Shown in pieces: positions 17,783-62,721 of a stretch of DNA of 64,000 nt; within the stretch, counting starts at the first letter, position 1, and each line of letters opens with the position of its first letter. A model generated the notes under the pieces. That model was given only the letters and a program-made list of their open reading frames with translations. It searched no databases and was not told the origin of the DNA. Position numbers and translations under genes: made by a program. Source of the DNA: Posidonia oceanica (taxonomy: Eukaryota > Streptophyta > Magnoliopsida > Alismatales > Posidoniaceae); assembly GCA_037176725.1 (NCBI GenBank), contig JAZBRS010000037.1, positions 13,589,298 through 13,653,297 on the forward strand, read 5' to 3'.

Positions 17783-17787
17783 CATAG
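17783..17787. repeat. Target-site duplication of element X, left copy (CATAG)
   Basis: CATAG directly before the LTR end at 17788; an identical CATAG follows the other LTR at 45537-45541. Removing X and one copy rejoins the gag sequence of Y in a way that aligns with the gag of X near 38050-38030, which confirms the insertion point. Confidence 0.96.
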
Positions 17788-18528
17788 TGTAGTAATCCCG
17801 GTGTTCAGATCGTCCATGCACACTGCCAGAAGCTCGCGTGCACCAATCGGAATCAGGCTCACTATAAGCGGCTATGTCCGAGGAGGAGGGCTCAACTCGA
17901 AAACACTTGAAACAGGGGAGAAAAGATAAGAAAAGAAGAAGATAAGACAATTCATAGTCGCCACTGTGTCTATTATCGGGAGACAAGGAAAACCGGGGTA
18001 ATGCGCAGATTAACACGCAAAACCAAGCAAAGGGTGCAATGCGAAGCAATGCAAAGGAAAACAAATGCAAATGAGATGACTCGTGCCTAGGATAAGGGCA
18101 ATATGGTCATTACAGGCCAAAAGACTGGGCAAGGACTCCTGTTACGTGCGGGGAAGGTGTTAGGCACCCCCACACGCCCGAGAATCGGTCTTTCTAGGCT
18201 TACGCTCGCATACGCAGGGAAATGCAGGTTTGAATGCCTAAATGCCAATGAATGCCTGAATGAATGCTCAAAGGTGTGCTTTAAGTGGTGGAATGCAATG
18301 CAGGGAAGTAAATGTGCAGTCTAAGTGCTCAGCAACGCTGTCTGTGTTCCGAACCGGGCGAACCCTGGCTCGTGAGAACTCCAGGCAGTAAGCATCACTA
18401 CCCTATATGCCAATGCAAGCGAAAAAGCAAAACGGTAGTAAAACCAAGCAATGCAGGCGACATGCAAGAGAAAACAGCATAAAACACGTGAAACAGCACG
18501 AAAAATGGAAGCGGCATGCGAAACGGTG

Positions 18529-18915
18529 CAAAAACAAGACCGGCACGCAAAATGGTGCAAGAAAACAAAGCCAGCACGCAAAACGATGCAAAAAACAAAG
18601 CCAGCACGCATAACGATGTAGAAAACAAAGCCAGCAAGAAACAAGAGCAGCATGCGAAACGGTGCCAAAAGCGAAGCGGGCACACAAAACGGTGCCAAGA
18701 GCGAAGTAGGCACGTAAAACGGTGCCAAGAGCGAAGTGGGCATGCAAAACGGTGCCAAAAGTGAAGCAGGCACGCAAAACAGTGCCAAGAGCGATGCGGG
18801 CACGCAAAACGGTGCCGAAAGCAGAGCGGGCACGCAAAAACGGTGCAAAAAGGAAAGTGGGCATGCAAAACAGTGCCAAGAGCGAAGCGGGCATGCAAAA
18901 CGGTGCCAAAACAAA
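18529..18915 (-). repeat. 30-bp tandem array in X 3' LTR
   Basis: About 12 copies of a 30-bp unit, best copies containing GCAAAACGGTGCCAAGAGCG followed by AAGCGGGCAC. The partner array in the 5' LTR is at about 40310-40670 and has fewer copies. Related to the 60-bp array of Z. Confidence 0.85.
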
Positions 18916-19589
18916 GCGAGATAAATCATCGATAAAGCCATGCAAATGCAAATACAAAGGAAAAGAGCAGGAGAAGCAAAGGGGAGGCAAATAGCGTAAG
19001 CATGAGAACGAACGCTGTTTAAGAACCACGCAAAGTAGGTGTGAAGACCTACAAAGGGGAAGAGAAGCAAGTGGAGGGATAACCACTATTCTGTGACCAT
19101 TTCCCACCAAAGTGTCCCACGACGTGTCTCGCACGCTGCCAAAAGCTCACGATGCGATCGGATCGTGGAAAAGGGGGAAGAAAGTTACAATTAGTAGTAA
19201 ATCTAGGGGAAACACAACACAAAAATGCCAAGAGTACGCGAAATGGGGAATAGAGTTGATAGACAGGAAGAAGGAGTCCTAATCTACATGCTCGAGAAAT
19301 CAGAAAGCAAAAACAATGCTTGCAATGCAAATGGGGTGCAAATGTATGCTGTGCAGGGGTTCAGAAGGACTTACCTTGGGAATCTGAAGCCTGATCTGAG
19401 AAATGCTTGGTCCATGTGGAAGAGCGCTTCGCTGGGGTCGTCCAGGTAGCTTGGTTGAGAAGATCTAACCGCCAGATCAAAAGATATCCCAGCTTCAAGG
19501 CAGAGGGGCCAAAACAGGGGAGAGGAATGGATCTAGCTGTAAAGGAGGTCCTAGGGGTGTGCAAAACAGGTCCTCCCATGTAAATGAGA

Positions 19590-20640
19590 GCTAGGTATGC
19601 TTAAGTGTGTGCAAAAATGCTAAATGCAAAGATGCATGAGTGCAATGCATGCAAAAATGCAAGAAAAGGACCTAAGAATGGCTTTTCAGAAAACTTGGGA
19701 GCTTATATGCAAGTTTTGAAAAAGTGGGACCTAAATGCAAAGATTTTGAAAAATTAGGGGCTTATATGCAAGATTTTTGAAAACTGGAGGGTCTGAGTGC
19801 AATTTTGCAAAATGCAGGGTTTAAAATGCAATTTTATAAGGTAAACATGCATTTGGATAATTTTTGAAATCATGTGGAGGATTAACATGCAATTTTGTAA
19901 GCAAAAATGTGGTCTTAAATGGTCTGTGAATGCAAACAGAGGATCTATGTGCAATTTTTAAATATGCAGGGTCTAAAATGCAATTTTATAAGCAAAAATG
20001 TGCATTTGAATGAGTTTTATAAACATGCAGAGGACCTATGTGCAATTTTAAAACATGCAGGGTCTAAAATGCAATTTTATAAGAAAAAATGTGCATTTAA
20101 ATGAGTTTTATAAACATGCAGTGGACCTATGTGCAAATTTAAAACATGTAGGGTCTAAAATGCAATTTTATAAGCAAAAATATTAAAAAACAGATGCTGT
20201 GCATAAATATGAAGGACCTATATGCAAAAATCAGAAACTGAAGGGGAAAAATGCATTACTGTAAGAAAAGATGAAAAATAAATGCATAATCAACATATCA
20301 GAGGACTAAAATGTAAATAGAGGAAAAGACAGGGTTTAAAAATGCAATTTACTAAGATAAACTTAGAATATTAAATGAGATTATTAACTGAAAGACTGAA
20401 ATGCAAAAATGAGAAACTTAGGGCCTGAACTAAAATAAACTTAAAAGGAAAACACAGCAGAAGGATTAACATGCAATTAATTAGTTTTTTAAGTTTTTCA
20501 TGCAATTTAATAAGATTTAAACTCAGATTTAAATGAATCTTAAACGAAGGCAAGACCAGAAAAAAATAAACTATAAATAGAAGCTGAAAATGCAATTTAT
20601 GGCAAAATAGCATAGTTAACAAAAATAAAAGCACAGTGAA
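19590..20640 (-). repeat. ATGCAA field with 91-bp repeats in X 3' LTR
   Basis: Within this AT-rich field a 91-bp unit containing GGACCTATGTGCAATTTTA recurs near 19941, 20032 and 20123. The 5' LTR shows two such units (near 41730 and 41822). The rest is irregular ATGCAA-rich sequence with no gene. Confidence 0.7.
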
Positions 20641-23600
20641 ATTGCAGGCGAGCGGCCACTGTAGCAACTGCTACCAGTGGCCGGGAAAGGCGGAGGAGGG
20701 AAGCTGGAGCGGTGAGGAAGCGTCAGCGGCCTTCACTGGAGACAGACGGAGATCGGGCGACGTTCGGCGAGCCGTGACGGTGCCTGGAGATGGCTGGAGG
20801 AGATGACAGAGGCCTGCTGGACTTCCGGAGATCGATCGGACGATCGGCGCGACGGGAGAACGTTCTGAAGGCACCGGCATGCTCCTGGAGTCGGTGCGGT
20901 CCTCAGGGGATGCTCGGAGCTGGGTTCTGCTGACTGGTGCGGCGGGACAGAGCCAGAGCTCGCTGGAGAAGACGGAGGCGCGGCGATGTTGACTCGGCGG
21001 CAGAAGGGGGAAACCCTAACCTAATGGCCGGAAAAGCATGCTGGAGAGAGAATTAGGCTAAGGGAAAAGGAATCTACTTATTTCCGTGGTTGAGAAGTCC
21101 TCCCGACGTCGGTGCCTTCTGCAGAAGTTGGCGAGCTTGGTCCGGCTGCTACGGGTGTCGTCGACGGGCTGCGATTGCTTGGATCCACTCCACGCGATCC
21201 TCAGACGCTTCCCGAACGCTCGGACGCAAGCTTTGAAGGCCGGAGCAAGAAATTGCTCCTTTGGGTTCAGTAAGAATGGCTGGAGGTGGGGGTGACTGTC
21301 TACTGCTCCCTAGGCTGGTAGGAAGGTGCCAGCGATCTTCTGGGTGCTTGGTGAGGGGTTCTGAATGCTATGATTGGACGGTGGGGGCTTGGTTCGAGAG
21401 TTGGCAGCTGGAGGGATTTCTGGTCAGAAATCAAGGAAGGTGTTTGGAGTGGAGGGTCTGGTCTGTGGGGAGAACTGGAGGTGAAGCTTAGGGGGGTTGG
21501 AAAGGTGGTGATTCAGGGAGTTAGGTGCTGGGATTTGGGAGGATTTTGTGAGCTGTGGAGTTAGGAATTCTGGGGAGAGGAAGTGTTGGGTTCTATCTTG
21601 GAAAAGGAGGAGTTGGGGGGTGGTTTCAGGGTGGTTCGGGCTATGGAAGGGTGGCCTGAAATGCTGGGAGTTTGGGTGGATTTGGGGAGGAAATTGGGAG
21701 AAGTTTGCTGGGTGTGGAAGTTCTGGTTCGGGTGGAAAGGAAGAGGGCTGTTTTTTGCAGAGGGGAAGAAGGGGAATTGGGTGCTCACAGCTCTGGATTC
21801 TCTCTCTCTTTCTCTGGACGACGAAAAGGCAGTGAAGGAGAAGAAGATTGGAGGCTTTATGCAGGAGCTGAAGACTGAACGGGCGCGCAGTGGATTCAAA
21901 TTGCACCGGCGGGAGCAGCAGCTGCAGTAGCGAAGGACGACGGAGCCGACGGGCATTAATTGCCCCCGAAGATCTTGCTGAGAGGCTGAGAGAGGAGGAT
22001 GGTGGACTGGAGCTGATGGTGATCAGGAGGGAGAAGTTGAAACCAAAATTTGAAGAGAAGGAGGGAGACTGGTGGTGCGGGAGAGAAGGAACTATAGAGG
22101 AAGAAGAAGAAGAAGTAGGAGGGAAGAAGGGGAGGAGTGTGTGCGGGCTGTGGGCCAGGCCGTGCGAAAAAGAAAGAAAAAAAGAAAGAAGAAAGGAGGG
22201 GAAGAGGAAGGGTGGAACGGGCCGGACTGGGCCCAAGAAGAAAAAGAAAGAAAAATAGAAAGAAAGGAAGAAAGGAAGAAAGGGAAAAGAAGAAGGGAAA
22301 GAAGAAGGAAATAAAAATAAATAAAAATAGAAAAAGGATGGGAAAAGTTTTTAGGATAGTTGTGTTTTAAGTTAGGACTTTGATTAAGTTTTTTAATGAT
22401 TGTTTTTTATTAGTTAATTAGGATTAAAGAGTTTTAGTTTTGATTAGGGTTTTTAGGGTTTTCTTTTCTTTAAATTGTTCTTGATTTTGTTTAAATGTTT
22501 GTTAAGTTTTTTAAATTGTTTTTTAATTATGTTTTTCTTGTTAAGTATTTAGGATGTTTTTTTATTAGGCTTTTTAAAGTTTGTTTTTAAATTAATTAGG
22601 GTGAGTTTTAGATTTTTTGATTTTAGTGTTTTCCTTGAGTCTTCTTTGATTTGTTTTTTATTTTTGTTTGTTAAGTTCTTTTTTTTTTATATATATATTT
22701 TTTAGTTGAGTTTTTTCCTTGTTAAGTTTTTAATTAATTGAGTGTTTTTAGATTTTTGATTATTTGTTTTCTCCTTTTTAATTAGGTTTTCAAATTGTTT
22801 CTTTTTAGGATTGTTAAGTTAAGTTTTTTTTTGACTTAGCATTTTTAATTGTTTTCTTTCCTTTTAGGATTTGTTTTTTATTGTTTTTTAGTAGGGCTTT
22901 TAATTTTGCTTGTTTTGATTACATTTTGGTTTTTTCCTTGATTTTACAACAATTTTCTTTTTGTTTGTTTTGCATTTTTTAAGTTGCATTCTTAGTTCTT
23001 GGTTTTAGTTAGACTTAGTTAGGTTTTTGTTTTTAATTGTTTGTTTAATGTTTTTAATTGCTTCCTTTTAGGGTTTTGATTTGCTTTTCTTTTGTTTTAG
23101 AGTTTTAAAGGTTTTTATGGGTTTTTTGAAGATTTAGTAGAAGAGAGGAAAAGAAAAGAAAAAGGAAGAAGACAAAGGAGAAATGAAGGAGTGGAGAAGA
23201 AAGAGAGGAGTGGAAAGAAAATAATTTTTAGAAAATCAAGGAAATGGCTAAAAATAAGATAAAAATACAAGTAAGATTCAAAAGAGATAGATGCACATGG
23301 GGGGCCCACAGCCAGGCAAGAAGAAGAGAGAGAAGGGAGTGAAAAGAAGGAGGATAATCAGGAGAGAGAGAGAGGAGAGAGAAAAGAATAATCCAAGAGA
23401 GAGAAAAGGATAATTTGGTGAAATGAAGGGGTTAGGGGTTTAGAAAAGAGATGAAATTTGGGGAGTGTGTGGCCTAGCGTCTCTAGTGTTGGACCTAGGG
23501 TTTGGGTTTGGTTTTGGGAAAGTTTTGGAAGGGTTTTGAGGTGTAGCAAAAGGGTAGTTTTGCCTAGGTTTTCTAGGGTTTTTGGGAGTGGTTTTGGTTT

Positions 23601-23826
23601 GAAATTTTGAGGGTTTTTGGGTAGGTTTGCTAAGTTGGGAATGATGAGTTTTTCTATGGTTTTTGGGTAGTTTTTGGATTTGGGAAAGGGGTGTAATTCT
23701 AGATTAAGTTTGGGCTTGTTTTGGAGAGATGTATGAAAAGGAATGTGTGGGTTTGGACCTAGATTTGGATCCAGAAGTCACCAGGAGATTCCAATTGACT
23801 CAGCCTGTCAAAATGGGGTGTCAACA

Positions 23827-23845
23827 GATGCCCCTCCCTGAGCGA
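23827..23845 (-). promoter_or_regulatory. Polypurine tract of element X
   Basis: Just before the 3' LTR on the minus strand: CTCAGGGAGGGGCATC then TGTTGACACC. The AGGGAGGGG core is the expected primer for plus-strand DNA synthesis. Confidence 0.75.
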
Positions 23846-24357
23846 GGTCAAGCGAAGCGAGGCCGCTGCTCAGGGTTGACAAGACACCCCATCTGACCGA
23901 CAAGAGCAGAAGTTTGCTACTGGCGTGAGTTACTTATTCGGCAGATGCACCGAAAGTCGTAGCTCGTTGCCGCAATGCAAAGTGCAGGTGCAGATGGATG
24001 AGATGCGATGTATGCAATGCATGCCAATGCAAATGCAATGCAAATGTTAGTGCAAAAGTTAGTACAGCTAGGAATGCTGATGCAGCACAAGATGATGATG
24101 ATGGATTAGTATGCAGTGCTAGAAAAAAAAAGTGCAAAGATGATGTAAAAGAAGAATGCCAAAAGAGAAACGTGATGTGGCACAAAGACCCGGCAGGCAG
24201 GCCAAACTTAAGCGACAAGGCGAGAAAGAAAAGTGCAGCTTGTCCCCACCCAAGGAGCAAGCTAGCGAAAAGGAGCGCGAGGGGAGAGGGGCCGACTCTC
24301 CTATCGCAAAGGGATGCGGGACTTTGCCTTCCTGGGACAAAGTCGCGCGAAGAGGGT
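23846..24357 (-). other. 3' spacer of X between PPT and hairpin array
   Basis: No supported gene. Contains short ATGCAATGC-type words at 24000-24060 and a GC-richer part at 24240-24350. Confidence 0.5.
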
Positions 24358-25420
24358 GATAAGATGTCGGACTTATCGGCCGGATAGTTTACGGACCTAT
24401 CAACCGGAAGCGATAGTTTACGGACCTATTAACCGGAAGTGATAGTTTACGGACCTATCAACCAAAAGGTGCAGTTGTGAGTGATAGTTACTGGATATCA
24501 GCCGTAAAACATGATTGTGCAGGATAGTTTACGGTCCTATCAACCGAAAGCGATAGTTTACGGGCCTATGAACCAGGAGCGATAGTTTACGAGCTTACCA
24601 ATTGGGAGCGATAGTTTACGGTCCTATCAATTGGAAGCACAATCCATGAGTGATAGTTACTGGTTATCAGCCGTATAACGCAAATGCCAGAGAATGATAG
24701 TTTACGGTCCTATCAACCGGAAGCGATAGTTTACGGGCCAATCAACCGGGAGCGATAGTTTACGGGCCTATCAACTGGGAGTGATAATTTACGGTCCTAT
24801 CAACCGGAAAGGGCATTTGCGAGTGATAGTTAGTAGATATCAGCCGTATAACATGATTGGCGCAGCGATAGTTTACGGTCCTATCAACCGGAAGCTATAG
24901 TTTACGGGCCTATCAACCGAAAGCGATAGTTTACGGGCCTATCAACTGGGAGCGATAGTTTACGGGCCTATCAACCGAGAGCAATAGTTTACGGTCCTAT
25001 CAATCGGAAAGCACAATCATGAGGGATAGTTACTGGTTATCAGCCGTATAATGCAAATGCAAGTGATAGTTTACGGTCCTATCAACCGGAAGCGATAGTT
25101 TACGGGCCTATCAACCGGGAGCGATAGTTTACGGGCCTATCAACCGGGAGCGATAGTTTACGGTCCTATCAACCAGAAAGAGCAATTGCAAGGATAGTTA
25201 CTGGATATCAGCCGTATAATGTAATTGCAAGTGATAGTTTTGGATATCAGCTAAAGATGAGTTTTGGATCATCAGCCAGAGAATGATAGTTTACGGTCCT
25301 ATCAACCGGAAGGTGCAACTACGAGGGACAGTTACTAGATGTCAGCCGTATAACACAACTGTGGGCTAGATAGGATATCAGCCCAAGATGATAGTTTACA
25401 GTCCTATCAATCGGAAAGAG

Positions 25421-25424
<4 letters not shown>
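24358..25424 (-). repeat. 29-bp GATAG...CTATC hairpin array in X 3' region
   Basis: About 25 copies of a 29-bp unit, typical form GATAGTTTACGGGCCTATC plus AACCGGGAGC. Each holds a GATAG/CTATC inverted pair around a 9-base loop. Every four units or so a variant appears, GATAGTTACTGGATATC plus AGCCGTATAA and a spacer, giving a higher-order period of roughly 160-180 bp. One copy of the type found in the 25589-26110 array (GATAAG/CTTATC) stands at the left border, 24358-24383. No coding function is supported. Confidence 0.9.
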
Positions 25425-25451
<27 letters not shown>

Positions 25452-25588
25452 AAGGAAAAGAGTGATTGATTGATTGATTGATAAGAAAAAGAGTGATTGA
25501 TAGGGAAAATAGTGATTGATTGATTGATTGATAAGGAAAAGAGTGATTGATTGATAAGAAAAAGAGTGATTGATGATTGAAAAAGATT
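25425..25588 (-). repeat. GATT microsatellite block in X 3' region
   Basis: Runs of GATT broken by GATAAGGAAAAGAGT or GATAAGAAAAAGAGT. It links the two hairpin arrays and could be the source of their GATAAG words. Confidence 0.85.
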
Positions 25589-26110
25589 GATAAGATATCG
25601 GACTTATCGGCCGGTAAAGGGAAAGGGATGATAAGATATCGGATTTATCGGCCGGCAAATGAATAAAAGAATAGAATGATAAGATATCGGACTTATCGGC
25701 CGGCAAATGAATAAAAGAATAGAATGATAAGATATCGGACTTATCGGTCGGCAAAGAGGGGATGAAGGAATGATAAGATATCGGACTTATCGACCGGCAA
25801 AGGGAAAGAGATGATAAGATATCGGACTTATCGGTCGGCAAATGAATAAAAGAATAGAATGATAAGATATCGGACTTATCGGTCGGCAAAGAGAGGATGA
25901 AGGAATGATAAGATATCGGACTTATCAGCCGGCAAAGGGAAAGAGATGATAAGATATCAGACTTATCGACCGGCAAATGAATAAAAGAATAGAATGATAA
26001 GATATCGGACTTATCGGTCGGCAAAGAGGGGATGAAGGAATGATAAGATATCGGACTTATCGGCCGGTAAAGAGAAAGAGATGATAAGATATCAGACTTA
26101 TCGGCCGGCA
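25589..26110 (-). repeat. GATAAG...CTTATC hairpin array with three-part higher-order unit
   Basis: Twelve copies of GATAAGATATCGGACTTATC followed by GGCCGGCAAA or close variants. Arms GATAAG/CTTATC pair around an 8-base loop. Spacers come in three kinds (containing TGAATAAAAGAATAGAA, GAGGGGATGAAGGAA or GGGAAAGAGA), mostly in a repeating order, giving a higher-order unit near 135 bp. Because 135 is a multiple of three, a 234-codon frame with a 45-residue period is open on the minus strand. I regard it as incidental. Confidence 0.9.
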
Positions 26111-26701
26111 AGTGAATGAGTTTCGCAAGGGCGAATCATCTCATGATACCAAGAATATCATGAGGGAAAGAGAGGGAGAATGATACCAAGGGGCGATCAA
26201 AAGATGCCCCTGGTATCAGGATGATACCAGGGGTTGGCCAGCGCGTCCTTGGCATCAAAACAGAGGGTGAAGACAAAACTGTCGTGTTTGCTAGATGAGT
26301 AGTTTGGGTTACTAGCCCAAGGATGATGACAGGTTGACGGACCTATCGTCGGGCAGTTGGGTGTGCCAGCCAAGGATGACAGGTTGACGGACCTATCGCC
26401 GAGCAGTTGGGGGTGCCAGCCTGCTGATGAAGATCCGGATGACGGTGCCCGGCAGCTTTGCTTGCTCAGATGTCATGGGTCAGCATTTGGGTTGATTGAG
26501 GAGGACTTTCCTGCGGTGTCCGGCAGCAAGTCTGGCCAGGGGCCCTGCAGATATGATTGATATGATCATGCATGCACTTGTAGCAGATTCGGAATGCAAA
26601 CAAGCGGCTCAGACCGCCTTTGTATTGATTGAACTTGATTACATGCCTGTGGCAGGCCAAAAGTTTACAGCATAAGATAAGCAAGCAGTTACATGGACGC
26701 T
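26111..26701 (-). other. Cluster of long hairpins, then plain spacer, in X 3' region
   Basis: Separate inverted repeats: CTCATGATA (26140-26148) with TATCATGAG (26156-26164), perfect 9 bp; CCCCTGGTATCA (26207-26218) with TGATACCAGGGG (26222-26233), perfect 12 bp with a 3-base loop; and the overlapping GATACCAAGGGGC (26182-26194) with GCCCCTGGTATC (26206-26217). Two copies of a 52-bp unit with AGGTTGACGGACCTATCG follow at about 26325-26420. From 26421 to 26701 I see no feature. Confidence 0.75.
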
Positions 26702-27904
26702 TTAGTCGGTCCGGGCTTTCTTTGCCTTTCTGGAGTCAGGGAACTGAGGAGCGCCAGGAGGTATCTCACTGATAGGCCAAAATGCTTGTACCTCCGTCAG
26801 ATATTCGGGAGTGCATCCCGAGCCTTGCGTAGATGCTAGGTCAGTAGACCGCACTCCGTGCTGCATAAGATCAGCCAGCTTAGTTGTAGCAGATGTTGAA
26901 CCATAAGGATATGCTTGAAGGAGCCTTGGGACTGTGCTGTCTATGAAAGCGCCTTGCTGGAGGCCGAACTGCCGCATGACCCAGATGGGGTGATACTCCA
27001 CACCTCCAGTGAATCCTGGCAGCACCACGAGTCGCACATCGCAGGTATCGAAGAAGATAGTGAAAGGCTCAGCCGTAGATGGGATGATGTGCCATGTGAC
27101 GGTATCGTCCGTCAGCTCAGATAGCTTCTTGTATTCCTCGGGGACTTTCTTGATTGTCTTGGCATGGCCGCTGTTGTAGTATGTTTCAATGATGTGGCCC
27201 TGGGGGCGCAGCAAGTTCAGTTCAAGGTGTGCAGCCAGCCAGATCTGTACTAGCACTCCGCAGCCGTGGAAGTGGTGGCAGCAGTGGGAGATGCGGTCCA
27301 GTCCACAATATGTTTCAGCCAAGACGACTGGTGCCAGGTCTATCTGCCTAGTCACCACAGCAAGTGCAATTTCAGCAATTTCTATCGCGACTGTCATCCG
27401 GCCATGAGTGAATATCAACTCTCCCAAAAATTGGGTGACAAATCCCCGAAGCCATAGATCATCTCCGAGTTCAGCGTGCTTGTCTATGGTCTCATCAAAG
27501 TAGTGTAGGCGCAGCATGGGCGTGGGGCCGCTGGTGCAGATCAGTCTTTACTGGCACCGGTCAGTAGATAGCCCAGATAGCTTGCAGAGGACCGCTATGT
27601 ACTTGTCGCGACTCATGAAAATAGGCGGTCCTATCAGCCAGGAGAAGCCACAGATGCGGCGCACCTCCTCTAGAGTGGGTGTTAGTTCAGTCCTTCCGAA
27701 GCAGAAGACATGGTGCACCGGCTTCTAGAATCTTGCAGCAGCGCACAGAAGGTGACGGCTCACTTCGACATCAACCGCCTTCAGTAGTTTCGTAGGTATG
27801 CCCCAGAGGCACAGCTTCTCGCAGTCTTCCTGAGTAAGCTTGCCAATCCAGCCCTGCAGGGCTTCAGAACAGTGCACTGGGGTTTCAAGAGTTGGATAAC
27901 CCAT
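26702..27904 (-). pseudogene. Extra ORF of X: DUF7745 / plant-mobile-domain-like protein, two stops
   Basis: A 400-codon frame in the same orientation as gag-pol, placed after integrase. I take the ATG at 27904 (MGYPTLETPV); the open frame reaches back to a TTG at 27964. Recognisable parts: FGRTELTPTLEEVRRICGF, then MSRDKYIAVL, then a block with FLGELIF, LAPVVLAETYCGLDR and CGVLVQIWLAAHL. That order matches the DUF7745 or plant-mobile-domain-like proteins common in plant transposons, as I recall them. Two stops interrupt it: TAG near 27727 where TGG (Trp) is expected after ARF, and TAA near 27550. The C-terminus (SRKAKKARTD) is basic. Role unknown; extra ORFs in this position are known from the Tat lineage. 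Confidence 0.7.
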
Positions 27905-29467: not shown

Positions 29468-32400
29468 CTACTGATAGTACTTCTTGAGGTAGCAGAGGTT
29501 AACAGGCTCAGACTGCTCGACCTGATCCATATCCTCAAGAGTTACAGCGCCGCCCGAAAAGACTTGCTTGACCACAAAGGGGCCACGCCAGTTAGGTCGG
29601 AATTTCCCTCGACCGTCAGGCAAGTGAATGGCGTGCAGAACAAGGTCCCTTGTCTGGAAGCCTCTTGGTTGAACTTTCTTCAAGTAAGACCTGGCCATTC
29701 TCTTTTGGTAGCAGTGAGCATTATGCATAGCTTGCAGCCTGTGCTCATCAATCAGATTTAGTTGGACACAGCGGTCTTCGACCCATTCTGCTTCTTCCAA
29801 CTCAGCTTCACGTAGGATCAGTAGTGACGGGATCTCTACCTCGATGGGCAGCACCGCCTCCATGCCATACACCAGAGAGTATGGGGTGGCACCTATTGAA
29901 GTCCGGACAGATGTCCTGTACGCCCAAAGTGCGTAAGGAAGCTTGTCGTGCCAGTCCTTATGAGTTTCTACCATCTTCTTCAGGATTTTGACCAGATTTT
30001 TGTTGGCGGACTCCACTGCACCGTTCATCTGTGGCTGGTAAGGCAAGGATCTGTGGTGTTTGATACTGAAAATCTGCAAATAGTCTTCGATCCTCTTAGC
30101 AATGAAATTCGTGCCATTGTGAGATATGATTGCATGCGGGACCCTGTATCGGGCTATGATATTGTTTCTGGTAAACTTTTCTGTAGCCACGGCAGTCACT
30201 GTTTTGTAAGAGGTTGCTTTCACCCACTTGGTGAAGTAATCAATCGCTACCAGAATGTAACGATGACCGTTAGAAGATGGAGGGTGGATGGCGCCAATGA
30301 CCTCAATCCCCCAGGTGGAGAAGGGCCACGGCGACGACATGCTGTGCAATTCTTGAGGGGGCACTCGGATAAAGTTGCCATGCACTTGGCAGTTATGGCA
30401 TTTGCGCACAAATCGGCAGCAGTCAGCTTCCATAGTTAGCCAGTAGTATCCTTGCAGCATTATCTTATTGGCTAGGAGGATGCCGTTCATGTGCAGGCTG
30501 CAGGTCCCCGCATGCACTTGAAGCATCAGTGCATCAGCCTCTGATTTGTTTAGGTAGCGCAGGAGCATCTGATTGTATGATCTCTTGTATAACTGTCCCG
30601 CCCCTAATACGTACTTTGACGCCAGACACGTCAAAGTTCTCTTGTCTACTGCTGAGGTACCGGGTGGAAAGCTGCCAGATTCCAAGAAAGCTTTTATGTC
30701 TTTGTACCAGGGCTGCTCCTCTGTTGTTGGATCTTCCTCTTCAATGCTCATACAGTTTGCAGGCTGCTCAATGCCAGTAACCGATACATCCACTGTGCTG
30801 TCTTCAGGTATGCTGAGCTAGGACGCCAAGGTTGCTAATGCATCTGCATATGCGTTCCTTGCTCGATTCAAGTATGTGAAGCGGATGCTCGCAAATTGTT
30901 CTATCAGCTTCAGCAGGTGTTCATGATATGGCAGTAGCTTCGGATCTTTCGTCTTCCACTCGCCATTGACTTGAGAGATCATCAGCATAGCATCGCCGTG
31001 CACCAGCAGCTTCTACACCTCATGCTCGAGGGCGACATTCAGTCCTAGGATGCATGCCTCGTATTCTGCTTCGTTGTTGGTGCATCTGAAGGTCAGCTTC
31101 TTGGAGAAGGGAATCATCTGTCCCCGAGGCGTTGTCAGCATTGCGCCTATGCCTCGACCTTTCTTATTCACAGCACCATCAAAGTATAGCTGCCATTGCT
31201 CCTGATCTTCAGGGTCTTTGTCTTCAGAGTCCTCCATTGCAAACAGAATGTCTTCATCTGGAAACTGCGTCTGGAGTGGCTGATATTCAGGCAGTGGGAG
31301 ATCAGCAAGATGGTCTGCCATAGCTTGGCCCTTCATGGACTTCTGAGTGACAAAGGTGATGTCGTACTGAGACAGTAGCACCTGCCACTTAACACATCTG
31401 CCTACCATGGCCAATTTTTGAAAGAGGAACTTGATAGGATCATGCCGGCATAAGAGCTGAATTGGGTATGCCATCATGTAGTGCCTTAATTTCTATGCAG
31501 CCCAGACAAGGGATAGGCAGGTCTTCTCTATTGTACTGTACCTGGCTTCGCATTCATTGAACTTCTTGCTCAGGTAATAAATGGCGCGCTCCTTTCTACC
31601 AGATTCGTCATGTTGGCCTAAGACGGCGCCCATGGAATGCTGCATGGTAGAAAGGTAGAGAAGTAGGGGTCTCCTTGGAGTGGGGGGAACCAAGACAGGA
31701 GGCTTAGTCAGCAGCTGCTTGATCTTGGCAAATGCAGCCTGACACTCCTTGCTCCAATGAATTTGTGCGTTCTTCTTCAGGAGCTTGAATATTGGCTCGC
31801 AGATGGGCTAAGCTGTGCAATGAAGCGACTGATGTATTGTAAATGCCCAAGCAGGCCTCTGACCTCCTTTTCAGTCCGAGGGGGTGGCATATCCACGATG
31901 GCTTTGGCCTTCATCGGGTCTACTTCAATCCCCCTTTGGCTAACAATGTAGCCTAGCAGTTTGCCAGAAGACACCCCGAATACACACTTGTTGGGGTTCA
32001 GGCGCAGCTTCTACTTTCATAGACAGGTAAAGAGCTTCTTCAGACAGGCAAGATGATCTTCAGACTCTTTGGTTTTGGCAATCATATCGTCTACATAGAC
32101 CTCCACTTCTTGGTGCATGAGGTCGTGAAACAGTGCAGTCATGGCGCTCTGATAGGTTGCGCCAGCATTCTTCAGTCCGAACGGCATGACTTGGTAGCAG
32201 AAGACTCCCCAAGGGGTGATGAATGAAGTCTTTTCCATGTCTTCTTCTGCCATTTTGATCTGATAATACCTAGAAAAGCCGTCTATGAAGGAGAGCATCT
32301 TGTGGCCCGCTGTATTGTCGACTAGGACGTCAATGTGAGGCAATGGGAAGTCGTCCTTGGGACTCGCCTTGTTCAGGTCCCTATAGTCGATGCAGATCCG

Positions 32401-33512: not shown

Positions 33513-36500
33513 CTAGGCTTCTACCGCCACTCCTTCCTCCTCAACCAAGGGTGAGTCGACGTAGTAGGCGCCGAGGGCCTGCGGCTCTGGCCCGGCTGCT
33601 AGATGGATCACTGCCCTTGGTATTTGCATTGTCTGGTTCACGGGCGTGCCTGATAGCGGCAGCTTCGGCATCAGAGATCCAAACAGACTGGTCAGTGGGG
33701 CCGCAGATGGGTATGCTACCAGGGTCACTGTTGCAGTTAGAGGGTAGGCAGAGGTGCTCTTTTGAGGGCCCAAGGGCTGGGATACTATGGTGCTCAACTG
33801 GTCCTCTGCATCTGGTTGTGACTGTGAGAGTGCGGCCTTTGACGCCATGAGGGTCTGCCATGAAAGTTGCTGTTTTGCAGCAGGAGGATGTGAAACGGAC
33901 GGCATCGGCTGCATTCTCAGTGATGCGGCTGCTGAAGTGGGCCGAGTCGCGTTGCTGACTGAATTCACAGACTGTCCCTCCAGAGAGAGTGACAGCGGTA
34001 CTGATGCGACTGCGACCGCAGGTAGCCTGCCTGACTGTGCCTGAAGGAGTGTCTCTGACTTCTGAGCTGCCGCTGCTGCTTGTGCTTGTGATGCAAATGT
34101 GGCTACAGAAATGTAAGAGTTTGTCAGTTCTGCCACAGAGCCTGCTGAGTTGTCTGCTATATCTGTTGGAGGAAGAGCCAAATAAACTGACCATGGCGCC
34201 TCTGTGCTGACCAAAGCCTTACTGCCAGTTGGGACTGCCTCTATTGCACCAGATTGCTCCTCATCTGAGTAGTAGTCCTCAATGCAGACCCATTCTTCTG
34301 TTGGCACCGTGGCTTGATCATCTGTTGATCCTAGAACTCCTGCACTGGTGAAGTTAGTGAGGTCTCTGGGGATGGTTGGTTCCTGATCCTTGAGTTGAAA
34401 GCAATGATCTTCGTTGGGCTTGGGCTCATAACCGAGGCCTTCAGATTTCCTCAGCTCCACCGCTACGATCGGCTCTGCGATCCCCTGGCCGTGACGCCCG
34501 AGCGGTGTACCCTTTATGTAACCCCACCTGTGACATACATTCTCGACCATTCGAAAGGGGTTGTTGTGAACGGCCAAGGAGATAGCGCGTTCAAGATCAG
34601 GAATGAAGTTAACCGGCTCACACCGATTAATGCGATACAAGGCTTCGGAAGTCTCAAGGTCAAAAGGGATAGTTTGTGAAGAGACGGGGGAGACTGCCTC
34701 GATCTGCTCCTTCTCAAAGTTCTTCACCATGACGACAATGACATCATCACCGTGACGGTACTTTATCATTCGATGGAGGGTCGAGGGAAGGACCTGATGC
34801 TTGTGGAGCCAAGGGCGCCCAAGCAGAAAGTTGAAGTTTGGCTTCAAGTCGACGACATAGAATTCTACATCGAACACGACTGGGCCAATGGCAAGAGGAA
34901 TGATCAGGATCCCCAGAGCGTCATGGTGGGTGTTGTCAAAAGCTGTCATTCCTTTCACGGCTGGTGTGATATCCTCGGCTTTGAATCCGAGCTTTGTTGC
35001 AATACGCAAGGGGCAGACGTTAAGGCCTGACCCGTTATCAACCAGCATTAGAGGGATGCGAAAGTTTTTGAACTGAACCGTGACAAATAGGGGTTGATTG
35101 TGATTAATCCCCGCCGGAGGCAGCTCATCGCTTGTAAAAGAGATGACCTGGGGCTCCGCAATCATCCCTACCATGCTTTCCAAGGCCGAAGGCTCAATGG
35201 ATTGGGACACACGGGCAGCTTGGAACACGCGAAGAAAAGCCTCGTGGTGTTCGGTAGAGGTGTGGATTAGGTCCCAAATGGAAATGTCGGCTTTGACCTT
35301 CTTAAGTTGAGAGGTTCTGTCAGCTTTGGGTTGGTTTTTCTTGGCAGCAGAAGGGGTAGCTTTGGCAAGCTCTAGAGGGGTAGTCACAGGAGATTGGGTT
35401 GCTACAGGTTGGGTAGGGATTTGGCTTGCTATAGGTAGGTTAGAGGCCGGATCTGCTATGGTTTGGTTAAAGGGTGGGGGCATAGCAGGTTCAGGATGGT
35501 TTGGCCTAACTGCCGGTGCTGAGGGTCTGTAGACCCTCCCTGATCGCGTCACTTCTGCACACATTTCTGTGGCGTAGCTGTAAGGGACGCGATGGGTGTC
35601 CAGGGTTAAGTCAATAACCACAGGAGCACATGCTATGAGCACAGGAGGGGTTACAGGGGGACCTATTGGGTATTGAGGTCTATCTAAATGGTAAGGTTGT
35701 TGGGGTGGGAAGGCAGGGGCTGGCTGAGGTCTGCCTAGAAGGTGTATAGGGGATTCTAGCTGAGGCCGCCCTAAGAGGTGGATAAGGGATCTAGGCTGGG
35801 CCCTAGCTTGGAGGTGTACAGGGGGTTGAGCCTGAGGAAGCACAGCAGGGGGCGCGAAGGGGCGCTCCGGCCTGGCACGCGGTTGGATCATGTGAACTCC
35901 CAACTCGGAGCCGGCAACTGCCGCGAGATAGAGATTAACAGGGAAAGGCTCAGAGATATCAGAAATAAGATCAGAAGGGTCTACCACAAAGGTAGTAGGC
36001 CCAGAAGGAAAGACAGACTGAATGCCTGAGGTTCCTGCCCCTCCCGGATAAGAGTGCTTCAGTAGAGGTTGGTGGATGATGCCAGAATGAGGGGGAACAG
36101 CTGAATGTGCAGATGCATGTGTGTGTGCTTGAGTGGATGCCTCGTGCGTGTCAATCACAATCGTTCCCAATTCGATTAGGTCCTGAATTGCGTTCCGCAG
36201 GGAGTAGCAATTATCCGTCGAATGCCCGACACTTCGATGGAAATTGCAAAAGAGGTTCGCCTTAAACCAATGCGGCAAGGGATTTGGGGGTGGGCGAACC
36301 TCCGGGAACTTCAGGAGCGATGCAACCTTTGGCAAGATGGCCGTGAGCGGTTCCACCAGTGGGGCGAACTTCCGCTTCTCAGTGGGTGGCCTTCTTTGCC
36401 TCTGGTATGAGCCTTGCTGAACCGGTGCGGCGGGGTAGACTAGTCTAGCAGTGGTTGTGATCTGTGGTGTAGGTGGATTCCTAGGTGCAGGAGCATACAC

Positions 36501-38257
36501 CATCTGTGTTGGGGCAGGCCGTGATGGTAAGTGAACAGGCACAACAAGAGAGTCGATGAATGTAACAGCTGTTTTCGGCGAGTCTTTCTTCTTGGGACGG
36601 TTGTTGCTGCTACCGCTGTTGTTGTTGGAGGTGCTGCTGTTGGCATTGTTATTGCTGATTGCGGCCTGCTTAGCGAACGTAGAGAGAGCCGGGAAGTTGC
36701 CACTCCGCAAAGAACTCTCCACGCGCGCTCCAGCTCGGATAAGTGCTGCAAAAGTAGTGACTGGTTGAATGCTAAGCAGAGCCCCGAGCGAAGGCTACGC
36801 CCTTCTGATAACGATCTCAATAAACTCCTCGTCAGAGGGTCTATCTCGAACCTGTGAAGCAAGGGCACGCCAGCGGCTGACGTACTCCCCGAACGGCTTG
36901 CTGGGATTCTGCTTGATTACGATCAAGTCTGCCCGCTTTGGGACTAGATCGAGGTTGAAGGAGTATTGTTCCAGGAACGCCTGACTGAGGTCGTTCTAAG
37001 TCTTGATGGCTGACATATCAAGTGATGTGAACCACTTGAGTGCCGACCCAGTCAAGCTCTTCTGGAACAGGCAGATCAACAACCTCTCGTCAGCCTGAAG
37101 CTGAGCGAGATCACCGCAATATGCCTTCAGGTGTGCTACGGGACAGCCCCTACCATTGTACTTGTTGAAGTCTGGGATTTTGAACTTCGGAGGGAGTACC
37201 GCCTTTCGAAAGCAACAAAGGTCCCAGAATTGGTAGGTCTGGTGCTCAGTACCCTATACTAGTCGTAGTGCCTTCTCCAAGACGTCCATTTGGTTGTTGA
37301 TGGCATCTGGATTTGCAGCCATGGGAGAGGGATCGGCAGGGGTAGTGAGCGCATACGCCAAATGGGTCGCACCTAAGTGCTCCTCCGGATCTACCATAGT
37401 GTCGCCTAGTGGAGCAACGAGATGGCCAGCGTATCCGTGCTGGGGAACTATGTATGCAGGGATGTATGCAGGGTTCTGGGCCTAATGCAAGGGAGGAGGG
37501 TAGATGACATGCTGTGCTGTGGGAGGGGTAGGATGCTGGAGCACCAGTTGCTGTACAGGCGGGGTGCCAGACAACGAGCCAGTGGGGTACTGGGCTCCAG
37601 CCAGCCCAAAGGACTGACCACCAGGGGGAGAGGAGCATGCTGTGCTAAGTGTTGTGTAGAAGGAGGCGGTAAACGGGCCCCCATCGTCGGAACCCTGAGC
37701 AGTTGAGACGATGGTCGAGGCAGAGGTGTAGAGGTAGATGTATGAAATGCAGGAACTGGCCTTAAAGGAACCTCAGGAGCGACAAGAGTACAGGAGGGAC
37801 GAACCGATAGAGCCATGCCCTGCAATCTCTAGGCAAGCTCCATCAGGTGCTGGTACTGAGCCTCAGGCATTCCGTCAGTAGGAATGCTGAAGTGCAGTGT
37901 CGGCGAAGATTGAGAAGCAAATGGCATGGACACAGACTGTCCGGGAGGAGTAGGTGCTATAGTAAAAGTCGCAGCAGCGGTAGGAGGGATGTCAAAGGCG
38001 ACGTATCCCTAGGAAGGAGGGGGCAATGGCGTCTCCGAAACGCGAGTAACAGTCATCAAGATAGACTTGGCGACCGGATCCGGAGGAAGAGATGCTTGCC
38101 AGTGTCCCGGGACATACTGAGATACTAGAGGCGTCAGGGGAGGAAACCCTGGCATCGGAGGGGGAACAAAAGGGACAGAAGGAGCAACTGGAGGGGCCAG
38201 AGCGGAAACACCCTTCGTGACAGGAGTAAAGAGAGGCTCACTGACGTACTGGGCCAT
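33513..38257 (-). pseudogene. gag-pro: Gag-protease of element X, stops in the gag half
   Basis: Same layout as the intact Z copy. Start taken at ATG 38257 (MAQ), the conserved first Met. Stops at 38008-38006, near 37829 and 37484, 37256-37254, 36998-36996 and 36797-36795; all are TAG where Z has Gln or Trp. A one-base deletion lies near 37635. From 36794 to 33516 the frame is open: zinc knuckle C-X2-H-X4-H-X4-C (CNFHRSVGHSTDNC near 36240), protease with VDNGSGLNVCP (near 35040) and FLLGRPWL (near 34815), then a Ser/Ala/Gln-rich tail. It ends in TAG at 33515-33513, in frame with the start of pol. Confidence 0.9.
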
Positions 38258-39596: not shown

Positions 39597-42500
39597 TGTA
39601 ATAATCCCGGTGTTCAGATCGTCCATGCACACTGCCAGAAGCTCGCGTGCACGATCGGAATCAGGCTCACTATAAGCGGCTATGTCCGAGGAGGAGGGCT
39701 CAACTCGAAAACACTTGAAACAGGGGAGAAAAGATAAGAAAAGAAGAAGATAAGACAATTCAGAGTCGCCACCGTGTCTATTATTGGGAGACAAGGAAAA
39801 CTGAGGTAATGCGTGGATTAACACGCAAAACCAAGCAAAGGGTACAATGCGAAGCAATGCAAAGGAAAACAAATGCAAATGAGATGACTCGTGCCTAGGA
39901 TAAGGGCAATATGGTCATTGCAGGCCAAAAGACTAGGCAAGGACTCTTGTTACGTGCGAGGAAGGTGTTAGGCACCCCCGACAAGCCCGAGAATCGGTCT
40001 TTCTAGGCTTACGCTGGCATACACAGGGAAATGCAGGTTTGAATGCCTAAATGCCAATGAATGCCTGAAAGAATGCTCAAAGGTGTGCTCTAAGTGGTGG
40101 AATGCAATGTAGGGAAGTAAACGTGCAGTCTAAGTGCTCAACAACGCTGTCTGTGTTCCGAACCGGGCGAACCCTGGCTCGTGAGAACTCCAGGCAGTAA
40201 GCATCACTGCCCTATATGCAAATGCAAGCGAAAAAGCAAAACGGTGATAAAACCAAGCAATGCAGGCGACATGCAAGAGAAAACAGCATAAAACATGCGA
40301 AACGGTGCGAAAAATGGAAGCGGCACGCGAAACGGTGCAAAAACAAGACCAGCACGCAAAATGGTGCGAGAAAACAAAGCCAGCACACAAAGCAATGCAA
40401 GAAACAAGAGCGGCACACGAAACGGTGCCAAAAGCGAAGCGGGCATGCAAAACGGTGCCAAGAGCGAAGCAGGCATGCAAAACGGTGTCAAGAGCGAAGT
40501 GGGCACACAAAACGGTGCCAAAAACGAAGCAGGCATGCAAAACAGTGCCAAGAGTGATACGGGCACACAAAACGGTGCCAAAAGTAGAGTGGGCACGCAA
40601 AAATGGTGCAAAAAGGAAAGCGGGCACGCAAAACGGTGCCAAGAGCGAAGTGGGCACGCAAAACGGTGCCAAAACAAAGCGAGATAAATCATCGATAAAG
40701 CCATGTAGATGCAAATGCAAAGGAAAAGAGCAGGAGAAGCAAAGGGGAGGCAAATAGCGTAAGCATGAGAACGAACGCTGTTTAAGAACCACGCAAAGTA
40801 GGTGTGAAGACCTACAAAGGGGAAGAGAAGCAAGTGGAGGGATAACTACTGTTCTGTGACCATTTCCCACCAAAGTGTCCCACGACGTGTCTCGCACGCT
40901 GCCAAAAGCTCACGATGCGATCGGATCGTGGAAAAGGGGGAAGAAAGTTACAATTAGTAGTAAATCTAGGGGAAACACAACACAAAAATGACAAGAGTAC
41001 GCGAAATGGGGAATAGAGTTGATAGATAGGAAGAAGGAGTCCTAATCTACATGCTCAAGAAATCAGAAAGCAAAAACAATGCTTGCAATGCAAATGGGGT
41101 GCAAATGTATGCTGTGTAGGGGTTCAGAAGGACTTACCTTGGGAATCTGAAGCCTGATCTGAGAAATGCTTGGTCCATGTGGAAGAGTGCTCCACCGGGG
41201 TCGTCCAGGTAGCTTGGTTGAGAAGATCTAACCGCCAGATCAAAAGATATCCCAGCTTCAAGGCAGAGGGGCCAAAACAGGGGAGAGGAATGGATCTAGC
41301 TGTAAAGGAGGTCCTAGGGGTGTGCAAAACAGGTCCTCCCATGTAAATGAGAGCTAGGTATGCTTAAGTGTGTGCAAAAATGCTAAATGCAAAGATGCAT
41401 GAGTGCAATGCATGCAAAAATGCAAGAAAAGGACCTAAGAATGGCTTTTCAGAAAACTTGGGAGCTTATATGCAAGTTTTGAAAAAGTGGGACCTAAATG
41501 CAAAGATTTTGAAAAATTAGGGGCTTATATGCAAGATTTTTGAAAACTAGAGGGTCTGAGTGCAATTTTGCAAAATGTAGGGTTTAAAATGCAATTTTAT
41601 AAGGTAAACATGCATTTGGATAATTTTTGAAATCATGTGGAGGATTAACATGCAATTTTGAAACATGCAGGGGTTGAAATGCAATTTTGTAAGCAAAAAT
41701 GTGGTCTTAAATGGTCTGTGAATGTAAACAGAGGATATATGTGCAATTTTTAAATATGCAGGGTCTAAAATGCAATTTTATAAGCAAAAATGTGCATTTG
41801 AATGAGTTTTATAAACATGCAGAGGACCTATGTGCAATTTTAAAACATGCAGGGTCTAAAATGTAATTTTATAAGCAAAAATATTAAAAAACAGATGCTG
41901 TGCATGAATATGAAGGACCTATATGCAAAAATCAGAAACTGAAGGGGAAAAATGCAATGTAGTAAGAAAAGATGAAAAATAAATGCATAATCAACAGATC
42001 AGAGGACTAAAATGTAAATAGAGGAAAAGACAGGGTTTAAAAATGCAATTTACTAAGGTAAACTTAGAATATTAAATGAGATTATTAACTAAAGGACCGA
42101 AATGCAAAAATGAGAAACTACAGGGCCTGAACTAAAATAAACTTAAAAGGAAAACACAGCAGAAGGATTAACATGCAATTAATTAGTTTTTTAAGTTTTT
42201 CATGCAATTTAATAAGATTTAAATTCAGATTTAAATGAATCTTAAACAAAGGCAAGACCACGAAGGCCGGACTAGAAAACAATAAACTAAAAACAAAAGC
42301 TGAAAATGCAATTTATGGCAAAATGGCAAAGTTAACAAAAATAAAAGCACAGTGAAATTGCAGGTGAGCGACCACTATTGCAACTGCTACCAGTGGCCAG
42401 GAAAGGCGGAGGAGGGAAGCTGGAGCGGTGAGGAAGCGTCAGCGGCCTTCACCAGAGACAAGCGGAGATCGGGCGACGTTCGGCGAGCCGTGACGGTGCC

Positions 42501-45500: not shown

Positions 45501-45536
45501 CCAATTGACTCAACCTGTCAAAATGGGGTGTCAACA
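39597..45536 (-). repeat. 5' LTR of element X (5,940 bp)
   Basis: Partner of 17788-23826, with the same zones: GATAAT repeats near 45063-45124, T-rich zone, GC-rich zone 43870-42360, ATGCAA field 42360-41350, 30-bp array 40670-40310, box 2 and box 1. Ends TGTTGACACCCC (45536) and GATTATTACA (39597). Promoter activity of the element would start here. Confidence 0.95.
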
Positions 45537-45541
45537 CATAG
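45537..45541. repeat. Target-site duplication of element X, right copy (CATAG)
   Basis: Identical to 17783-17787; directly follows the 5' LTR of X. Confidence 0.96.
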
Positions 45542-53383: not shown

Positions 53384-54572
53384 TGTTGAAAAATATCTGT
53401 GATATATGTATTTTGATGATAACAAATTGATATTACTTGAGATTATTATTCAATTGATTTATAAGATAGGTGGATCATTGAAGAATATCAAGTACAGCAT
53501 GAAATGCGAAAGATATTTCTACATCAAGAGACTACACAAAGGACAAGAAGAGAGATCAAGTCAAAATGCATTTATGTTGTAATTTTATATATCTCTGTAT
53601 CAGTATACTTTGAGAAATGATATAACGGATCTCCCAAAAACAGTTGGGATATCACCCTCACCTAAACCTAGGGTCTACAATTAGAAAACCTCAAAGTTTA
53701 GAAGTTGGGTTAGAAACGGCAAACCGATTTCTATCGGTATACCGTTTCACAGGGTAGAAGGTTAATTAGCAAAATATCATTTAAATATAACCATTGGATC
53801 AAAACGGAACACCATTTTCAAACGGAATACCGTTACTTAATATAAGGGTCTTAGCTCCGAAATTCACCGGAACACCGGTAGTATTTGTCTACAGCTCAGA
53901 TTAATATCGGAATACCGTTTCATACCGGAATACCAATTTAGCCGAAAGTTGGAGATTTTCGGTCAACCGTTTTATATCGGTCTACTGTTTTATACTAGCC
54001 GTTTGTTAATGTTGAGCTAGCTGTTAGACACAGACTTGGGCTATGTTTTATCTATAAACAGGACCCTTTAGGACCCACCAAAGGCACCTACCATCAACTA
54101 GCCTGTGTACTACTCATTTACTAAGCTACAAGATCCATACACGTGAGAATACTCCCCAAACATCCAAAAGGCTACATCTTGTGAAAAGTATCTTCAAAAG
54201 ATCAAAGGAGGCACTACTTAGTTTACTTTAAACAAGGATCATTCTTCTCGGGTTGTGAGAAGAGCTCTGCTAGTATTTGCGGAGGAGGAATTCTTCATCA
54301 AGTAAGTATTGTATTATTTGATAAAGATTAAGGGAACTCCAGAGGGGATCTAGGAGTGGACTAGGCCGGGTTGGCTGAACCACTATATATACTGTGTCTA
54401 TTATTATTGCCTCTTTTCTCCTTCTGTGATTGTAGTAGTTATTATTCAAATTGCTCTTCTTATATCTTTCCTATTTGAATATTATCTATTGATCTGTTAA
54501 AATTGGTTAAAATTCTGTTTAAATTTAAATTACTCTATTCACCCCCTCTAGAGGTGCCTCTCGATCCTAACA
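53384..54572 (+). repeat. 5' LTR of S1 (1,189 bp)
   Basis: Starts TGTTGAAAAATATC, ends ATCCTAACA. The middle (about 53710-54000) is full of short inverted words such as ACCGATTTCTATCGGT, GGAATACCGTT and CACCGGAACACCGG. Palindrome-rich LTR promoters are typical of this lineage. A TATA box at 54053 marks U3/R. Confidence 0.96.
54053..54058 (+). promoter_or_regulatory. TATA box of S1 5' LTR
   Basis: CTATAAACA, conserved as TATAAATA at 62196-62203 in the 3' LTR. A start near 54085 would follow. Confidence 0.65.
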
Positions 54573-54574
54573 AT

Positions 54575-54586
54575 TGGTATCAGAGC
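54575..54586 (+). promoter_or_regulatory. Primer binding site of S1
   Basis: TGGTATCAGAGC two bases after the LTR, complementary to the 3' end of initiator tRNA-Met, standard for plant copia elements. Confidence 0.95.
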
Positions 54587-54634
54587 TAGGTTGTCTAAAA
54601 GTTAAGATCTAACAATCTCTTTAGACTAAGAAAA

Positions 54635-59100: not shown

Positions 59101-59229
59101 AATATAAAATTAGAATTTATCTCTACATCTGAACAACTTGCTGATATCTTTACAAAACCACTTGATGAATCACAATTTATAAAAATTAGAAGACATCTAG
59201 GTATATGCAAGATAGATGATCTGAATTAA
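56164..59229 (+). pseudogene. pol: Pol of S1: protease, integrase, RT, RNase H; degraded
   Basis: Copia order. Protease WILDSGCSRHMT with DSG at 56229-56237; integrase zinc region (RRLGHANMGQL ... CDACQFGKQ) and core with HIDLFGP, SDHGGEF and GVVERKNRTL; RT with ARLVAQGYNQEEGINF and YVDD at 58278-58289; RNase H with YSDADYAGCKTDRKS and STTEAEY. Stops at 56430, 56688, 56961, 57180, 57315 and 57786, mostly CAA-to-TAA or TGG-to-TGA/TAG. A frameshift near 58555 moves the last 223 codons to another frame. Catalytic residues are otherwise present. Confidence 0.93.
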
Positions 59230-59327
59230 AATTTATTTTCTCTAAAATCTAAATTGGTATACCGAAATTAAATGGTTTTCCGATCTCTATATAAATTTGT
59301 CAAATTTTTTTGATACCGTTTTTGTCT

Positions 59328-59770: not shown

Positions 59771-59806
59771 TTTTTTCGTTGAAAACCCTAGAGTTCGGCC
59801 CTTTCC

Positions 59807-62716: not shown

Positions 62717-62721
62717 TTGTG
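62717..62721. repeat. Target-site duplication of S1, right copy (TTGTG)
   Basis: One mismatch to TGGTG at 53379-53383. Confidence 0.88.

Follow-up and report, generated by a model that had tools for sequence, protein, structure and literature searches.

What keeps the arms of a hairpin complementary when their letters change from one repeat family to the next? The question is raised by a field of short repeats at 24358–26420 of the window, by which we mean the whole 64,000-nucleotide stretch of Posidonia oceanica DNA analysed here; its end, position 64000, coincides exactly with the end of the contig. The field is real, a mosaic of short tandem repeats most of which are built on a hairpin unit, and it makes up the hypervariable noncoding 3′ region of a retrotransposon of the Ogre type. 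The preliminary description of this DNA was right both in assigning the field to a Tat/Ogre-type 3′ region and in seeing a stem theme kept across its families.

Nested LTR retrotransposons in minus orientation lie within the window, and one of them, element B, carries the field (Table 1). Its LTRs are 4.2% different over 5924 aligned bases, or about 2.1% per copy since insertion. Directly after the 5′ LTR stands GTGGCGACTCTGCTGGGG, a putative primer binding site, and the sense order at the other end is the plant mobile domain (PMD) ORF, the field, the likely purine tract and the 3′ LTR. The G-patch domain in the protease ORF of B (PF01585) scored 27 bits against a cut-off of 22; G-patch domains are familiar from betaretroviral proteases. 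Both LTRs contain a 30-bp minisatellite with GGCAC/GTGCC arms (18514–18918 and 40300–40681; unit shuffle P 0.03), in many units of which a T.G pair stands uncompensated, by eye. As far as sequence can place it, B fits the Ogre clade of the Tat lineage (Ty3/gypsy) by its PMD, its long LTRs and the two RNase H domains of its sibling A, in which Pfam matches RT_RNaseH and then RVT_3 within one ORF. In the available text of PMC6317226, a PMD is reported in the extra ORF of 57% of Ogre elements, and very long LTRs, large size and a target-site duplication of 4–5 bp are given as non-chromovirus traits. B has the PMD in an extra ORF, LTRs of 6039 and 5940 bp, a length of 27.7 kb and the duplication CATAG, and thereby exceeds the sizes named in that text (LTR about 5 kb, element 24 kb).

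Table 1 Features of element B and of its repeat field in the window.
Feature	Position	Strand	Details
Element B, complete LTR retrotransposon carrying the field	17788–45536	−	27.7 kb; LTR self-alignment, target-site duplication, ends
Target-site duplication CATAG of B	17783–17787 and 45537–45541		5 bp, at outer edges
3′ LTR of B	17788–23826	−	6039 bp; self-alignment, similar ~6-kb blocks
5′ LTR of B	39597–45536	−	5940 bp; self-alignment
Likely polypurine tract adjoining 3′ LTR	23827–23843	−	By eye, sequence at LTR edge
Single delta-type hairpin, 3′ (sense) end of field	24358–24377	−
Cluster domains	24383–25408	−	22 alpha (29-bp unit), 6 beta and 3 gamma hairpins
Closing arm R1	24510–24520	−	Pairs with L2
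Closing arm L2	24637–24648	−	Pairs with R1
Closing arm R2	24679–24688	−	10/10 pairs with L3
Closing arm L3	24812–24821	−	Pairs with R2
Closing arm R3	24852–24863	−	Pairs with L4
Closing arm L4	25011–25021	−	Pairs with R3
Closing arm R4	25052–25061	−	Pairs with L5
Closing arm L5	25181–25190	−	Pairs with R4
Closing arm R5	25220–25229	−	Pairs with L6
Closing arm L6	25314–25323	−	Pairs with R5
TGAT-rich array	25424–25580	−	No hairpins formed
Delta array	25582–26119	−	12 hairpins GATAAG/CTTATC; higher-order period 135 bp
zeta0 hairpin	26140–26164	−	9-bp stem, 7-base loop
zeta2 hairpin	26207–26233	−	12-bp stem, 3-base loop
Two epsilon hairpins GACAGGT/ACCTATC	26328–26397	−	50-bp unit; each with one C.A (sense G-U)
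Accessory ORF with PMD	26702–27544	−	Pfam PF10536 (E 6.1e-09) and DUF7745; 53 homologues
Integrase ORF	29468–30814	−	Pfam rve and Integrase_H2C2
ORF with aspartic-protease match and G-patch domain	33513–36791	−	Pfam

All four arm pairs named in the preliminary description are present in the field, and its repeat periods were borne out by Tandem Repeats Finder, which gave 29, 169 and 200 bp within 24383–25240 and 48 and 135 bp within 25582–26119. By eye we picked 46 hairpin units in five families (alpha 22, beta 6, gamma 3, delta 13 and epsilon 2), with two single zeta hairpins counted apart. The arms of the 46 units form 239 pairs: 228 Watson–Crick, 5 G-U in the sense (minus) strand, 3 G-U in the plus strand and 3 mismatches. 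These units are copies within one field and not independent of each other. The five families, too, look akin by eye, the sense strand mostly reading CGG-YY-GATA, a loop beginning near UCC, and UATC; many hairpin units are therefore not many independent hairpins.

Taken singly, the units form stems near chance. The shuffle P of the longest perfect stem was 0.19 for the 29-bp unit, 0.05–0.10 for the 41–48-bp units, 0.41 for beta and 0.89 for epsilon, in a test that omits the last four of 17 units, and single-unit folding was rejected as evidence because of this nearness to chance. The field as a whole contains 2 perfect stems of at least 9 bp with loops of 3–20 where 0.4 are expected from its length (12 in the window), and the window's only stem of at least 11 bp sits in it. 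RNA fold z-scores averaged −1.57 on both strands of the field (24 folding windows) and −0.21 and −0.24 by strand in the remainder of the element (318 folding windows); fold energy alone was rejected as an argument for an RNA role, since it does not differ between strands. A reading frame without stops, about 240 codons long, spans the delta array and was likewise rejected as a gene, none of 5331 candidates reaching E ≤ 0.001. Rfam gave nothing over the gathering score in 23800–26700, where three matches up to E 1 scored 17.5–21.9 bits against 36–48. Searches of viral contigs with hairpin patterns returned one match, taken as chance, and on a second search none, and nothing useful came from loci for PMD, integrase and RNase H there or for PMD in prokaryote contigs. 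Elsewhere in the window, an unrelated Ty1/copia element (53384–62719; RVT_2, Transposase_32 ORF) holds an array of 41-bp units at 59319–59533, among the units omitted from the shuffle test; its arms are TTCCGAA/TTCGGAA, two units carry GATCA/TGATC and GTTCA/TGAAC, respectively, and the other units are unpaired.

A second level of pairing, absent from the preliminary description, encloses the units. Five repeat clusters are each bounded by closing arms of about 10 bp that differ from cluster to cluster, the linkers beside the beta units being complementary across each cluster. Pairing right arm i with left arm i+1 in the window copy gave scores of 9.5, 10, 8.5, 7 and 7 for stems 1–5, with shuffle P of 0.0002, <0.0002, 0.0024, 0.0098 and 0.0034. 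Only 2 of the 120 possible assignments of the window's own arms reach the observed sum, the true one included, and in a set of three clusters without mutual copies the true assignment outscores the other five. As a control, 19,163 trials on random window stretches with similar spacing reached a score of 10 in 0.18% and of 7 in 6.3%, and stems 4 and 5 of the window copy are therefore unremarkable on that control alone; the imperfect stem 5 of the window has counterparts scoring 10 in 20 of the 34 copies parsed. When either strand is folded to its predicted minimum energy, each of the five stems is present in full or for the most part.

We then turned to other copies in the genome, which comprises 2.96 Gb in 80 contigs. 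First-look candidates numbered 2962 for the delta array and 7367 for the alpha domain, not all of them confirmed; all 40 scored in each case match, the other 39 of the alpha domain at 93–94%. Thus neither adverse outcome foreseen by the preliminary description occurred: the arrays are not restricted to this copy, and arm complementarity in other copies stays above chance instead of falling to it. Among the 40 copies compared, namely the window and 39 further ones (L010 and L011 forming a near-identical pair, and L030, L038 and L039 a near-identical trio), most of the 39 keep the plan and some are truncated or rearranged, such as L016 with two alpha units in the stretch read. Their 98 neighbouring arm pairs comprise 76 of the same stem type with a mean score of 8.94 (74 scoring at least 7) and 22 others with a mean of 4.8, which is a description more than a test, since pairs were sorted by arm type and those of the same type are expected to match better. 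The 22 mostly join arms of different domains, some of them because the closing-arm parser skipped some beta units, and a few score 7–10, including misclassed or recombined stems; neighbouring beta units separated by over 420 bases were also left out of the parse.

The zeta hairpins of these copies vary as well. In the 37 of 40 copies that are readable, the second pair of zeta0 is C-G in 19, T-A in 10, C.A in 7 and T.G in 1 (Fisher P 0.0007, the copies not being independent), and zeta2 of L048 reads GTGTCA/TGACAC where the others read GTATCA/TGATAC or one-sided variants. The zeta2 loop is GGA in 24 of 40 copies and its reverse complement TCC in L019, an apparent inversion between the 12-bp arms. 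Beside other PMD matches in the genome, at L053 2560–2680 and L055 2452–2560, we observed 37-bp units that form near-perfect palindromes around GAATTCGGCAG/CTGCCGAATTC. On the minus strand of G000:C62:365902-1864070, many of the PMD matches listed are about 25.45 kb apart, a spacing suggestive of retrotransposon-sized units in a megabase-long tandem array.

Alignments indicate that B was inserted in sibling A, and that a further sibling, D, lies inside A to the left; the 3′ fields of both A (L050) and D (L049) lie in the left flank. B, A and D have unlike monomers, that is, the 3′ tandem repeats differ between subfamilies. The closing-stem plan recurs in D with both arms changed in sequence, as in CATGGTTGCC/GGCAAACCATG and CGCAAGTGCC/GGCCTTGCG, and D has CGTAATTGCC/GGCAATTACG where B has CGTAATTGCA/TGCAATTACG; three of the D closing stems contain a one-base bulge and one a mismatch. 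Across ten B and D stems, matched arms score 9.35 and crossed arms 5.18, and none of 200,000 permutations reaches the sum, the B arms having been chosen by the analyst from well-kept copies. In A, the 81-bp array (about 47 copies) sets GATAGG/CCTATC and GATAAG/CTTATC around the same loop, with a fifth pair of A-T in 47, G-C in 44 and A.A in 1 of the 92 hairpins read by their loop. The 64-bp array of A sets GATAGGT/ACCTATC and GATAAGT/ACTTATC around the same loop, and among 553 hairpins of A and 13 further 64-bp-type arrays the fifth pair is G-C in 262, A-T in 256, A.C in 10, G.T in 8 and other in 17. The A array hairpin count, like the unit parse of the older B family, dropped units with more than four arm mismatches. 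This fifth-pair switch is probably one old double change multiplied, and many of the changes counted are few events copied many times. Arrays of up to 3–4 kb were found, a modest expansion toward satellites.

The two arms of hairpins and of closing stems differ together between families, domains and siblings. The earlier claim that arms change together stands for repeat families, cluster domains and siblings, but it fails where changes are scattered over the units of the older family. In that B family such changes are almost all uncompensated and one-sided: the 821 parsed alpha units (at least 44 of these rows being epsilon units) contain no compensated double change and the 644 delta units one, the other exception being zeta2 of L048. 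Some beta and gamma rows of this parse are chance matches, and clear rows are quoted. In the window copy, 8 of 220 arm sites have changed, in keeping with the 2.1% per copy given by its LTRs, and in the 29-bp unit the loop is at least as conserved as the stem, one variable position aside.

D (L049:5640–6720) returned 3105 first-look candidates, and the other 39 copies scored were 98–99% identical over 1081 bases; judged by this identity and this number, the family is very young and numerous. Four D copies, read through three loop-anchored patterns, hold 31–33 hairpins each, and all of their 128–136 pairs are Watson–Crick. The arms take four forms (GATA/TATC, GACA/TGTC, GGTA/TACC and GATAG/CTATC), and the loops vary. 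One-sided stem changes number 0 in 256–272 sites and loop changes 12–15 in 258–274, the latter mostly at one position, so that P values of this contrast overstate it. Outside the three patterns, the first delta-like unit has two A.C pairs and a 37-bp array varies out of pairing. Pairing seems to be maintained as long as a lineage is active, and resident copies seem to lose it.

We propose that selection on the folded sense RNA keeps the pairing while the lineage of the element is active, a reading to which we give an even chance. The transcript would have to fold here into small hairpins within closed domains, and selection would maintain pairing during the activity of the lineage; in an inserted, silent copy, the arms would decay like any other sequence. 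Repeat number and sequence would turn over quickly, probably by strand transfer in reverse transcription, and under such turnover the fold would be kept and the letters would not. Template switching may supply the double changes, with selection removing the single ones. Our guess is that the folded tail would act in cis on the genomic transcript, as an RNA element of the kind that serves export or packaging. Selection for folding of the transcript would explain the contrast between active and resident copies as well as the closing stems. The broader idea, which we put at slightly under even odds, is that the 3′ UTR of an active Ogre-type element is a modular RNA architecture of hairpin arrays in closed domains, whose fold is under selection, with very rapid turnover of its sequence, its arm letters and the number of its units.

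A selected transcript fold also predicts wobble pairs in the sense strand. Sense against plus-strand wobbles number 16 to 8 in the 81-bp array of A (P 0.15), 90 to 71 in the 64-bp arrays of A (P 0.16) and 7 to 1 in zeta0 (P 0.07), a lean toward the sense strand that falls short of significance. Shared variants leaning toward the sense strand are C.A in at least 42 of the 89 parsed epsilon units (16 of these rows being delta-like), C.A in 7 copies of zeta0 and the 64-bp variant ACCCATC in 42 hairpins from 8 arrays. Plus-strand wobble variants are ACCTATT (20 hairpins), ACTTATT (14) and GATA/TGTC (4 units), the first two of which we ascribe, by eye, to CpG decay. A strand test on all imperfect pairs was rejected, as most of these look like post-insertion decay and CpG sites bias the alpha and delta counts, by eye. 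If their fold is what keeps the repeats in the elements, satellites would arise as a by-product of a selected RNA structure, and the numerous dated copies within a genome would display compensated changes from before insertion alongside unconstrained decay from after it.

Arms could also change together without function. A polymerase that uses one arm as the template for the other, in reverse transcription or in replication, would alter both in a single event, and the hairpins would be by-products of repeat-making; template switching of this kind is described in the available text of PMC8794818 as creating stems, compensated changes and inverted loops. It would account for the reversed zeta2 loop of L019, for a double insertion separating GATA/TATC from GATGA/TCATC around the same loop, for the equal folding of both strands, and for the two units in the copia array of the window whose arms differ together. 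Nevertheless, we regard it as a rather unlikely explanation for the whole. Switching can add matched changes but does not remove one-sided ones, and the young D stems examined have none although their loops vary; the wobble states shared by epsilon units and zeta0 copies look like the residue of stepwise change; and the closing arms, 84–147 bases apart, match over about 10 bases while their flanks do not, by eye. Simpler still, this might be an ordinary hypervariable Ogre 3′ region in which one chance hairpin was multiplied. Single-unit stems near chance agree with that, as does the normality of tandem repeats at this place (available texts of PMC7004042 and PMC6317226), but the closing stems, the arm differences shared with siblings and the pairing in the young family would all be unexpected, and we hold this account to be very improbable.

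A further alternative treats the dyad units as DNA sites bound by a protein, perhaps the PMD protein of the element itself, in an anti-silencing role by analogy with VANC. The array lies near the PMD ORF in B and, by alignment to B, in A and D; the GATA/TATC half-site is mostly kept; and among the 15 alpha units that have a further alpha behind them, the core (variable position excluded) has changed at 7 of 270 sites and the tail at 17 of 150. VANC targets, too, are short motifs in fast-evolving noncoding tandem repeats (available text of PMC5735166). However, arm sequence and spacing vary widely between units, the 4.4–4.5 kb beside four other PMD matches contain other dyad repeats but no GATA arrays, and the closing arms are too far apart to be a dimer site, yet they differ together. 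We consider this alternative improbable as a whole: a VANC-like DNA-binding role is possible for the small dyads and hardly so for the closing arms. Of all these readings, selection on the folded transcript is the one that we favour.

Tat/Ogre 3′ UTRs are known for hypervariable tandem repeats (Macas 2009, as cited in PMC7004042), and plant satellite DNA is documented to arise from the tail repeats of Ogre-type elements (PMC7004042); to these the field adds hairpin units, closing stems and co-varying arms, and the words hairpin, dyad and secondary structure are absent from the available text of that paper. Retand elements resemble B in a long region between pol and the 3′ LTR and in an extra ORF, and about half of them carry tandem arrays, but their extra ORFs are antisense and mostly TRP28, whereas that of B is sense and encodes a PMD (PMC11963269); neither hairpin nor secondary structure occurs in the available text. 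VANC proteins bind tandem motifs in VANDAL transposons and undo silencing (available texts of PMC5735166 and PMC10398659). Like the field, their targets are noncoding tandem repeats of a transposable element that diverge fast and keep a short motif; unlike the dyad-symmetric units here, the VANC motifs all point the same way in their arrays and are bound as DNA, and the words inverted and palindrom- are absent from the available text of PMC5735166. A survey of the literature by title and beginning of abstract, a scope outside which Macas 2009 itself falls, yielded no report of such a structure. The constitutive transport element of Mason-Pfizer monkey virus is a structured RNA near the 3′ end of a retroelement. 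Its likeness to the field would be one of analogy, a structured 3′ RNA, and the field of B differs in having dozens of units. Relative to the literature searched, tandem repeats at this place and their role as a source of satellites are already known; the hairpin units, the closing stems and the co-varying arms appear to be new.
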